Positions 55,253 through 64,000 of a stretch of 64,000 nt of DNA are shown here, piece after piece. Positions within the stretch are counted from its first letter, which is position 1. Each line of letters starts with the position of its first letter. The position numbers were made by a program, and so were the translations under genes. Under the pieces are notes generated by a model. It was not told where the DNA came from and made no database searches. It saw nothing but the letters and a program-made list of their open reading frames with translations. Source of the stretch: Cheilinus undulatus (Eukaryota; Chordata; Actinopteri; Labriformes; Labridae); the NCBI RefSeq assembly GCF_018320785.1, contig NC_054866.1:36991000-37054999 (forward strand), read 5' to 3'.

Positions 55253-55330
55253 TTAGGCCAGCGTTCCCCCAACAATGGAAGCTACTACAACTCCCAGAAT
55301 TACACAGCATATAATAATCATTATTTTCTT
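55253..55330 (-). CDS. stx1a: Canonical syntaxin-1 membrane-anchor exon (exon W)
   Basis: 25 codons plus TAA, phase 0, with acceptor TTGTGCAG. It encodes [20 protein letters not shown] then GGTLA, almost the textbook syntaxin-1 anchor. It joins exon Y to give 'KARRKKIMIII'. Confidence 0.93.
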   Translation of the reverse strand, partial: KKIMIIICCVILGVVVASIVGGTLA

Positions 55331-61300: not shown

Positions 61301-64000
61301 ACTTTTTGCATTTTGGGATGGTCTCTGTTGCATAGTCGACATGTTCCTGAGCTTCCAGCACACTGCGTTCAATATTGTTGACCAGCCCTCCCTGCAAAAA
61401 GAAAATATTTTTCATGTTTTATTATTTGTATTTGTATTGTGCAGAGTTTTCTACATTGCTGCAACCACCAATCCACAATTCTGCATTGTAGTGATTTTTA
61501 GTGTGAAACAGACAAATGGCGTGCAGTGCTTCAAATATAAAAAAGAGGAATTAAAGGTGAATTACCTTGTTACATAAGCACTGTAGGGCTGTTTTCTGTT
61601 CTCTAGGGCTTACAAACATTGTGGTGATGACAGAGTTGAGATGTGAAAGAGAGAAAAAACAGTGCAGATCTGAGAAATGCAAAATTAACAAGCAGATTTC
61701 AATACCATGTTATTGATTTTGCAGAAAGAAAGGGTTACTTATTTGGATTAGAGCATTTAGATATTACTAATGCCTGACAACATAATAATAGAGCACGCAC
61801 AACAGGACTGAATTATTAGGCTATTCAACAAATATCACACCCACACTTAATGAGGGAATTAATCAAACCCATTGTAGTGGCACTGTAATTCACACCACTT
61901 ACAGGCCACTATTTGCTTTCATATTTTTCATTCATTATAGCCTTCATTTATACTAAGTATTTTGAATGAGGAAAACTGTTTATCTCTGTAAAGATAAAGC
62001 ACAACCACACAAGCAGGAAAAGTCTACTGATGTAAAAACTTGACATAAAAGAGCACAGAAACGTGGGGCCTATTGAACAGCTGGTGAAAACCATCTTACA
62101 TTGTAGTGTAGATGCCTTTCCTATTTTCAACCTGATGCAGTTGTCACTTTGTTCAATAAACTTGTGCTCCTGTTAGCACCCCAGCTGTGTTTGTTTTAAG
62201 ATGAAGAATGGTCAGGAACAAAACTACATTTCTGCCTTGAGGATGCAGAAAGTAGCTGCATCTTTGACGCCCCAAATTAGGTTTAAAATCCAAGTCCAGC
62301 CTGGGTTTGTGCAAGGATTGTTTGCCATCTAGATAGCAAAATGCCTTTTATACTGCTTCAATAGGGCCCTTAGTGTCTCTGTACATATAGTGCTATAAAG
62401 AGGCTGTATGCTGCACTAAGGGACCTACATAACATCACAGATCCCTGATGGATTCAAATTTCTCATTATGCTGTACATGCAGCATCTCTGTTATACTGAA
62501 GAATTTATTACTTTTCTATTACTATTCTGAACCCACAAAGACAAATCCCTGTAATTTTTTGTTATTTTACACTTGAATGCTTTGACAAAACATCAAATTC
62601 ATGCAGCACTGTTTCATTGCCAACTCTTAAGTCCCAGGTGTCAGATGTTCCTTTCAGCACATGAACAGTGTGATAATTATGTAAAAAAGGTCTAATGGCA
62701 GAAATCCCGGATACAGATTATCAGCAAATTTCAATCAACTGATCCCTAAGCCAATAAATATCTGTGTCCCAAATTCTGTCCGATTTCACTGAGTTATTTT
62801 GCAAACAGATAAGCAGATGGAGCAGAAAACATAAACTCCTTCCAACTCTGTTGGCAATGATGAGCTGAAATCTAATCTATCTAATACACTCTAAAACTTG
62901 TATGTTATTACAAGACAAGAATTAAGAGACTTAAGGAGAAGCCACAGCTGCTGCATGGTTGCAACGTTGTTTTCTTATAGCTTGTTAATGTTTTTCTTAC
63001 TAATGACTGAGATTTTAAGCTTTATTTTGTATGATCTGTTTCCTAGGATAGATCTTTGATTTATGAATACACTGAGTCTCTGCAGGCTTGTTTTTTTTTG
63101 GAGGATTTTTCATAGTCCAGTAGCAGACGGTTGTAGGAACTATAGACAGTTTTACCATGAGGCAAAGGAAAGGAATCTCCTTGAGCCTCCTGCACCAAGG
63201 TGCCTCAAGATAACGTCATAACCAGCTTATCTACCTAATATAAATCTGCCATACTACTACACACCTTACTCATCTTGATCATGTTTAAACAGCATCCATG
63301 CACAAATTAGAAATGTACAGTAAATGCAGATGGATTTGTAGTGAAAAGGTTTAATTAAGGCTTATACATACTGCATTCAAATTTAAAAATTAAACAGTAT
63401 CTTTTCTGTTTTTCTAGATTCCATTTTTAATTTATGCACATTCAGAGCAAAGCAAACTGGACTCAGATTCCTAGCTTGTACGCTTACATGACCAAAGAAG
63501 CTGATAAAGATACTGAATGTAGGTGTAAATCAAAGAAGAGGTCTGCTGACGGCCAGGGGTGGGCAACTGGTGGCCCTCAAGTCAGTTTTAGAAATCAAAA
63601 TAAATTTAAACACATTTGAAATCTGACCAGAAATCTTTCACAAACACACTAGAGACATGCTAAAATAGTTAGTGTTGAGTGTGAGTTATGAAGCTCCTCT
63701 AAGAGTTGATGAAATATTGCTGGGTATGTATATTTCAGATTTGTATGTTTTGTAGTTCTCTGGCTTTGCTACCTGAAAAGAGATGCTTTGAAATATTTGG
63801 TCCACTCACTGTTATTGCTTTCAGCTAATTGGGAAGGGCTTCAAATTAGTCTTTAAACTCCAAAGTCCTAGAACCAGCCCTAAAGGGTCCATGGAGGGAA
63901 TTAGTGTTTTCACCTGGCTCTCCACCAGCATGGCCATGTCCATGAACATGTCATGAAGCTCTCTGATGCTGTTTTCCAGTTTGATGATCTCATTGTGTCG
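55253..64000 (-). CDS. stx1a: Syntaxin-1 (stx1a-type), 3' part, partial
   Basis: Presynaptic plasma-membrane t-SNARE that pairs with SNAP-25 and synaptobrevin for vesicle fusion. The window holds the last shared exon (63914 to beyond 64000) and four alternative 3' exons: 61281-61391, 60981-61091, 59051-59131 and 55253-55330. The shared exon reads [20 protein letters not shown] and ends at the zero-layer Gln. The canonical path (63914, 60981, 55253) gives '...[20 protein letters not shown]' and '[13 protein letters not shown]', matching syntaxin-1A/1B. The 5' exons (N-peptide, Habc) are outside the window. Linkage with rabgef1, as on human 7q11, favours stx1a over stx1b; the protein alone does not decide. 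Confidence 0.88.
55570..56215 (+). mobile_element. Internally deleted Tc1-like element
   Basis: Long inverted ends: AATGTCAAAGTGAAAACAGA (near 55612) is mirrored near 56090 (TCTGTTTTCACTTTGACGTT). Inside are scraps of a Tc1-type transposase: '[16 protein letters not shown]' near 55695 and a '[12 protein letters not shown]' equivalent near 55805. The middle of the gene is deleted. Lies in the syntaxin terminal intron, between exons Z and W. Confidence 0.8.
56696..58704. mobile_element. Probable hAT-type element, ~2 kb
   Basis: Outer ends CAGGGGTGTCCAAAC (near 56699) and GTCTGGACACCCCTG (ending near 58696) are inverted copies with two mismatches. Flanks GCTTAAAG and GATTTAAG agree at six of eight positions, so the target duplication is worn. 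No transposase seen. A LINE 3' end is nested inside at 56870-57370. Confidence 0.6.
56870..57370 (+). mobile_element. LINE 3' end (L2/CR1/Rex-like)
   Basis: The open frame 56951-57193 includes '[20 protein letters not shown]' and '[18 protein letters not shown]', the typical C-terminal end of LINE reverse transcriptase polyproteins. A 3' UTR follows, with 'GGTGCTGTACAAATAAATAA' before the abrupt end near 57370. It is 5' truncated, as is usual after incomplete reverse transcription. Confidence 0.8.
59051..59131 (-). CDS. stx1a: Alternative membrane-anchor terminal exon (exon Z)
   Basis: 26 codons plus stop, phase 0, with acceptor CCTATCCAG. It encodes [14 protein letters not shown], then [12 protein letters not shown], a single hydrophobic anchor. 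The end 'ALSIGLS' resembles syntaxin-2/3 anchors ('LIIGLSVG'), not the canonical syntaxin-1 anchor. It has its own stop, so it is an alternative last exon and needs its own poly(A) site. Confidence 0.8.
   Translation of the reverse strand, partial: KVILIAGCVALLCLTILIIALSIGLS
59135..60115. other. Syntaxin intron between exons Y and Z
   Basis: No exon recognised apart from the alternatives listed. A TTAGCTTAGCTTAGC-type stretch lies at 59655-59720, related in composition to 15600-17310. Confidence 0.4.
60120..60480. repeat. GTATC/CATAT pentamer-type array
   Basis: About 350 bases of GTATC, TCATATCA, TGTATTGTATCG and CATATCATAC words: the reverse complement of the GATAC words at 3341-4180. It lies in the syntaxin intron, about 500-850 bases from exon Y. 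Confidence 0.75.
60981..61091 (-). CDS. stx1a: Canonical syntaxin-1 SNARE C-terminal exon (exon Y)
   Basis: 37 codons, phase 0, with a GTCCCAG acceptor and a GTGAGT donor. It starts [20 protein letters not shown] and ends with the syntaxin-1-type KYQSKARR. Layer residues +1 to +8 are I, I, V, S, V, A, T and A. Confidence 0.93.
61281..61391 (-). CDS. stx1a: Divergent alternative SNARE C-terminal exon (exon X)
   Basis: Exactly 37 codons, phase 0 at both ends, with a TTTTTGCAG acceptor and a GTGAGA donor. It begins [18 protein letters not shown] and ends KKFKKTSKR. It shares only nine of 37 residues with the canonical exon, yet keeps V, I, V, A, V, A, I and C at the +1 to +8 layer positions. 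A Pro after layer +7 and a basic KKFKKTSKR end distinguish it. 'VNNIER' recalls syntaxin-2. It lies upstream of the canonical exon, as expected for mutually exclusive splicing. Confidence 0.75.
61395..63910. other. Syntaxin intron, 2.5 kb, no exon seen
   Basis: Between the shared exon and exon X. A CAGGGGTGGGCAACTGGTGG segment near 63553 looks like one end of a hAT-type repeat. Nothing else recognised. Confidence 0.4.
63914..64000 (-). CDS. stx1a: Syntaxin exon: N-terminal half of SNARE motif (window edge)
   Basis: 29 complete codons, phase 0, starting [16 protein letters not shown] after one Arg and ending MLVESQ, followed by a GTGAAA donor. The final Gln is the ionic zero-layer residue. 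The exon continues beyond position 64000. Confidence 0.93.

Follow-up and report, generated by a model that had tools for sequence, protein, structure and literature searches.

Syntaxin-1, among the best-studied target-membrane SNAREs, is usually treated as a protein with one SNARE helix and one membrane anchor. A syntaxin gene in the fish Cheilinus undulatus raises the question of whether a single syntaxin-1 gene can offer two of each. The 3' part of this gene lies on the minus strand at 55-64 kb of the window, by which we mean the whole stretch of 64,000 nucleotides (nt) that was analysed (NCBI RefSeq assembly GCF_018320785.1, contig NC_054866.1, positions 36,991,000 to 37,054,999). Behind a shared upstream exon, which we take to be exon 8 (E8), come two SNARE-half exons, X and Y, and then two anchor exons, Z and W, and these match the four exons of a syntaxin-3 gene (stx3) of the same genome in phase, order and kinship. 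We think it probable that the 3' end of fish syntaxin-1a (stx1a) keeps a complete ancestral A/B set, with X as SNARE-A, Y as SNARE-B, Z as anchor-A and W as anchor-B, used either as Y with W or as X with Z.

A sequence-only reading of the window had proposed coordinates for X, Y, Z and W, phase-0 boundaries and, from these, four possible isoforms. We recovered exactly those coordinates on the minus strand (Table 1), and the rest of the proposal was borne out by the exon borders. The acceptors of all four exons end in AG, and the donors of E8 (CAG/gtgaaa), X (CGG/gtgaga) and Y (AGG/gtgagt) fit the donor consensus MAG/GTRAGT at 7, 7 and 8 of 9 positions, respectively. Every junction is in phase 0, and the frame is open for X-Z, X-W, Y-Z and Y-W; it is also kept if X and Y are both included or both skipped. 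Further upstream on that strand of the contig (C2 below), Habc-region exons continue to about C2:37,105 kb. This puts the length of the gene at 59 kb or more, counted from the located exons, which do not include the very first one. Past W, the first AATAAA or ATTAAA lies 1.7 kb downstream.

Table 1. Features at the 3' end of the syntaxin gene, in window coordinates and in the direction of transcription.
Feature	Position	Strand	Remark
E8, shared upstream exon, 3' part, 29 residues	63914..64000	-	exon runs on past the window edge
Exon X, 111-nt SNARE-half exon, 37 residues	61281..61391	-	A-type kin by tblastn and trees
X-Y intron, 189 nt	61092..61280	-	pyrimidine-rich; TACTAAC, branch-point-like, just before Y (by eye)
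Exon Y, 111-nt SNARE-half exon, 37 residues	60981..61091	-	55 bits to Pfam SNARE on its own
Two TGCATG (RBFOX-type), starts 60903 and 60851	60846..60903	-	candidate neuronal enhancer of Y, putative function
Exon Z, anchor exon, 26 residues then stop	59051..59131	-	closest to stx3/stx2 anchor-A
ATTAAA, ~120 nt past the Z stop	58925..58930	-	candidate poly(A) signal of a Z-terminated transcript
Exon W, B-type (classical syntaxin-1) membrane anchor, 25 residues then stop	55253..55330	-	

Is X a SNARE exon, or an open frame that looks like one by chance? The two strands of the window hold 431 stretches of 111 nt between an AG and a GT, 81 of which are open. Scored against Y (BLOSUM62, ungapped), X reaches 46, and the next of the 81 open stretches, Y aside, scores -3. 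When the splice-site demand was dropped, 18,753 open 111-mers were found anywhere in the window; X again had the top score after Y itself, the best 111-mer other than Y, X or X shifted by 9 nt reaching 21. These controls reject X as a chance open frame. The core layers +1 to +8 of X, in the register of rat syntaxin-1A and known syntaxin-1A structures, are V, I, V, A, V, A, I and C, apolar at all eight positions versus 3 of the 20 non-layer positions (p 5e-5).

The ending E8-Y-W scored 80 bits to Pfam SNARE, in agreement with the earlier description of the Y and W set as textbook syntaxin-1, and Y is identical to the corresponding exon of syntaxin-1b (stx1b) at 35 of 37 residues. Two stx1-type genes were recognised in the genome, the window gene on C2 and a second on contig C21. 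The C2 gene carries DMFMDMAM, as does syntaxin-1A in the PDB, and the C21 gene carries DMFVDMAM, which we take to be 1B-like. Judged by sequence, the window gene is syntaxin-1a, distinct from the stx1b of the same genome. The window also holds a rabgef1 (Rabex-5)-like gene at 36653-40021 (-), with one open frame for a VPS9 domain and another for an A20-type zinc finger; in human, RABGEF1 and STX1A both map to 7q11.

We then asked which other syntaxin genes of this genome (1.17 Gb, 46 contigs) share the arrangement. A 38-residue exon of the Hc region, used as a query, gave 11 matches, one each on C2, C21, C10, C5, C4, C17 and C20, two on C18 and two on C14, those on C18 and C14 sitting in long open frames. 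We assign C21 to stx1b, C10 and C4 to stx3, C5 and C17 to syntaxin-2 (stx2), C20 to syntaxin-4 (stx4), and C18 and C14 to a stx11/19-like group. Pfam SNARE matched the genome at 15 places. Exons were mapped at C2, C21, C5, C20, C10:30.3 Mb and C4, with C17 searched in addition; matches on C10:9.8 Mb (the best match), C8, C14, C16 and C18 fall outside these maps, and the one on C3, another type of syntaxin, was left unused.

Among the mapped loci, and as far as exons could be recognised, only the window gene and the C10 stx3 have all four, and they have them in equal order. The C10 gene presents E8, A, B, anchor-A and anchor-B in succession, and its SNARE exons are likewise 111 nt long and in phase 0. 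The C4 stx3 showed B and anchor-B only. In stx1b we recognised one B-type SNARE-half exon, preceded by an intron of only 94 nt, and one anchor; in the C20 stx4, one SNARE-half exon and one anchor; and in the C5 stx2, one A-type SNARE-half exon and two anchor-like exons. The C17 stx2 has one A-type SNARE-half exon, with no anchor recognised within ~15 kb downstream, and neither of the fetched stx2 loci, C5 or C17, yielded a B-type exon. By tblastn, the fetched stx1b locus gave no convincing relic of X or Z, and the C4 stx3 gave no convincing relic of an A exon, only low-complexity matches to anchor A. Within this one genome, the quartet of the window gene has its counterpart in the C10 stx3, and no X or Z was seen in stx1b. 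As a separate observation, the frame of the A-type SNARE exon of the C17 stx2-like gene (C17:26218033-26218143; L039:5034-5144) stays open beyond its GT donor and continues as a basic tail before it reaches a stop.

Where do X and Z come from? In tblastn searches, whose E-values refer to the small set of fetched loci other than C17, X matched best the stx2 A exon (40.5%, E 1e-5) and then the stx3 A exon (E 5e-4), followed by the stx3 B exons and stx4 (E 0.009), Y (E 0.03) and stx1b (E 0.08). The best matches of Z were the stx3 anchor-A (50% over 24 residues, E 0.002) and the stx2 anchor-A (E 0.013). In plain identity, X agrees with the stx2 A exon at 15 of 37 residues, with Y at 9, and with stx1b and stx4 at 8 each. 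Genome-wide, no near-identical second copy of X was present among the three best candidates that were scored, which were X itself and the A exons of the two stx2 genes (E 3.2 and 5.4). A tree of the 63-residue endings grouped X+Z with stx2-A and stx3-A (support 96/97), and an approximately unbiased (AU) test on the same endings rejected a grouping of X+Z with Y+W and stx1b (p 0.030). When the second stx2 (C17) was added to the SNARE-half alignment, a stx1-only group was also rejected (p 0.009), and X stood beside the C17 stx2 exon (84/86). For Z, A-type descent is indicated by tblastn and by the tree of the joint endings. Taken together, these comparisons support A-type descent for the first SNARE exon and the first anchor, with one AU test of three borderline. 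The likeness of this pair to syntaxin-2/3 that had been noted earlier holds, the A-type SNARE exons of these genes being closest to X and their A anchors closest to Z in the searched set, and the further suggestion that the arrangement may be ancestral in the syntaxin-1/2/3 group is supported by the C10 stx3 quartet, the trees and the AU tests.

We propose that E8 spliced to Y and W would give classical neuronal syntaxin-1, and that an A-type syntaxin-1 would result when E8 is spliced to X and then Z and the transcript is polyadenylated at an earlier site. This second product would presumably be confined to non-neuronal cells or be the minor one, much like STX3A in tissues other than retina. 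In the simplest history, the ancestor of syntaxins 1, 2 and 3 would already have had A and B SNARE halves and A and B anchors; the full set would survive in stx1a of this fish and in one stx3, the B versions in stx1b and the other stx3, and A with two anchors in the C5 stx2.

The choice between X and Y, which is the weakest part of this proposal, may be made by signals around Y. In the usual picture, PTB represses a neuronal exon and RBFOX promotes its inclusion. Pyrimidines make up 77% of the X-Y intron, in which CTCTCT occurs four times, and this intron contains the only 100-nt stretches of at least 80% pyrimidine on the gene strand between 54500 and 64000. Of the two TGCATG, one lies about 78 nt and the other about 130 nt past Y; at least two TGCATG occurred in 28 of 1274 sampled 300-nt windows of the gene strand. 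A PTB-type pyrimidine tract before Y might therefore keep the exon out of non-neuronal cells, and RBFOX-type sites after Y might draw it in within neurons. These candidate motifs are suggestive only, since TGCATG also occurs elsewhere in the gene. No TGCATG was found in the 300 nt behind the Y-type exon of stx1b. Behind the B exon of the C10 stx3, the corresponding 300 nt contain no TGCATG and eight TAG, compared with three TAG behind Y (counts with no shuffle control). We also noted a TAG-repeat run, TTTTAGTTTAGTTTAGTAGTAG..., behind this C10 B exon (L015:5824-6123), which would fit a Musashi-type enhancer, given the Musashi control of photoreceptor exons and of Stx3.

Several results weigh against a retained and functional A/B set in stx1a. 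X alone scores 12.5 bits to Pfam SNARE, under the 26.8 cut-off, and Pfam by itself would therefore not call it; the E8-X-Z ending scores 13.6 bits. Z had no Pfam match, and Pfam on X or Z alone thus lends no real backing; a PDB search with X alone returned only two weak matches, to syntaxin-13 and to a designed protein. A proline falls between layers +7 and +8 of X, and the X+Z branch is long, at 1.12 changes per column; because of this length, the exact place of X+Z inside the A group is unsure. Given the branch, the score and the proline, relaxed constraint on X is possible. With respect to descent, X ties at 10 of 37 identities with the stx3 A and stx3 B exons, and an AU test on the SNARE half alone, with fewer rows, gave p 0.062, which does not reject a stx1 origin at 0.05. 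With the C17 row the A-type group had a support of 94/95 and was not starred, and that row was first found by a search with X, which may favour the grouping, although the Hc exon also found the gene. With respect to usage, the nine TGCATG on the gene strand at 54001-64000 are not confined to Y, three of them lying in the E8-X intron. The sequence forces neither X with Z, nor Y with W, nor the mutual exclusion of X and Y, and the X-Y intron should be long enough for X to be spliced to Y.

In a first alternative, X and Z are relics, that is, true A-type exons inherited by this lineage but no longer used, and open by luck or by recent loss of use. The long branch, the sub-threshold SNARE score and the proline near layer +7 would all fit a relic, and A exons were not seen in stx1b or in the C4 stx3, so loss seems common. 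However, the frames of X and Z are open, X has kept its length and both of its splice sites, Z has kept its acceptor, and the core layers of X are apolar throughout, where stops or indels would be expected in an unused relic of such age. We regard disuse as unlikely, though it is the most serious of the alternatives. A second alternative is that the exons are joined in pairings beyond E8-X-Z and E8-Y-W. All junctions would permit this, being open and in phase 0, and the C5 stx2 places two anchor-like exons behind a single SNARE exon; in the excerpts of PMC8263458, by contrast, human STX3 couples 9A to 10A and 9B to 10B, and we consider other pairings improbable. The last alternative, in which Y and W were recently duplicated in tandem within stx1a and the copies converged on stx2/3, would explain the tandem position, the SNARE-half test that falls just short of rejection and the equal identity of X to stx3 A and B, but it is disfavoured by the identity of X to the stx2 A exon rather than Y, by the trees and the AU tests (one of three borderline) and by the equal four-exon order in the C10 stx3, and we give it the least credence of all.

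How does the A/B set that we propose for stx1a compare with known systems? Syntaxin-3 is the closest. In excerpts of the published accounts, human STX3A is built from exons 8-9A-10A and STX3B from 8-9B-10B (PMC8263458), the two having exons 1-8 in common (PMC11476516). Together with the C10 stx3, this confirms the earlier statement that paired alternative 3' exons are known for syntaxin-3. By its sequence, the window arrangement is of the STX3A/B kind, which it resembles in position, in the order A, B, anchor-A, anchor-B and in having 111-nt, phase-0 SNARE exons, as in the C10 stx3. It differs in that the gene is syntaxin-1a, in that X is far more diverged, with the 10 of 37 identities to the stx3 A exon given above, and in that Y is surrounded by a pyrimidine tract and TGCATG, whereas the C10 B exon is followed by a TAG cluster. 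Mammalian STX2 has alternative anchors, and in the present genome the A-type SNARE exon and A-type anchor of syntaxin-2 are next of kin to X and Z, and the C5 gene has two exons that resemble anchors; unlike stx1a, syntaxin-2 showed a single SNARE-half exon. Mammalian syntaxin-1C, a splice form of STX1A, has an alternative, frame-shifted C-terminus without an anchor. It thus resembles the X-Z form in taking a different ending from the syntaxin-1A gene, but X and Z are separate, in-frame exons that bear an anchor.

Two further cases invite comparison. The C. elegans syntaxin-1 gene unc-64 has alternative exons 8a and 8b, between which UNC-75/CELF chooses, with 8a neuronal (excerpts of PMC4946901). 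It is likewise a syntaxin-1 gene with alternative anchor-bearing 3' exons, but its choice as described there is 8a versus 8b, whereas stx1a has a SNARE-half pair and an anchor pair; we liken 8a/8b to Z/W in layout. Exons 5a and 5b of SNAP-25 are, in excerpts of PMC2581893, an ancient, mutually exclusive tandem exon duplication that is also present in bony fish. Ancient tandem duplication in a SNARE gene would be common to both, although SNAP-25 is another SNARE protein and has one exon pair where stx1a has two.

A bolder extension, which we offer tentatively and hold to be more doubtful than the A/B set itself, is that X and Z make a second t-SNARE with a sharply diverged membrane-proximal zipper and a new anchor, working outside or against fast synaptic fusion, and that sister quartets might be run by different splicing codes, PTB/RBFOX for stx1a in brain and a Musashi-like TAG code for stx3 in retina. 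The splicing part of this idea is opposed by the C4 stx3, which has no TAG cluster behind its B exon; the 300 nt there contain four TAG and one TGCATG, and this speaks against a simple gene-by-gene code. An A-type pair in fish stx1a, if kept, would probably predate the split of syntaxins 1, 2 and 3, and its absence from the stx1b of C. undulatus would then be a loss. Such a gene would amount to a natural experiment, since a single gene would swap both its anchor and the membrane-proximal zipper half while leaving the Habc regulatory domain as it is. Among the listed matches to searches on fish and on alternative syntaxin exons, seen mostly as titles and the starts of abstracts, A-type exons in stx1a were not mentioned, and peptide strings from X or its junction were absent from open-access full texts, figures being outside that search. 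A predicted isoform of the X/Z kind may already be present in genome annotations of stx1a in fish.

The remainder of the window contains a mixture of genes and repeats. Next to stx1a is an inflammatory-caspase-like gene at 49554-50744 (+), whose CARD and caspase domain are encoded by different open frames. A large open frame at 22377-23312 (+) encodes collagen repeats and a C1q domain, and an immunoglobulin-domain exon at 26792-27157 (-) perhaps belongs to an Fc-receptor-like gene. Fragments of transposase open frames, which we take to be Tc1-like, are scattered over both strands (1094-1531, 3015-3416, 12522-13202, 43159-43446 and 48381-49193; open frames only). Tandem Repeats Finder reported an array of a 42-bp unit at 25282-25495 (5.1 copies, 88% matches), which lies inside an open frame, and a degenerate 5-bp array (ATACG/GATAC-like) at 3345-4039. 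Similar 5-bp arrays were seen, by eye only, at 60160-60480 and in locus L025, one of them inside the Y-Z intron of stx1a.

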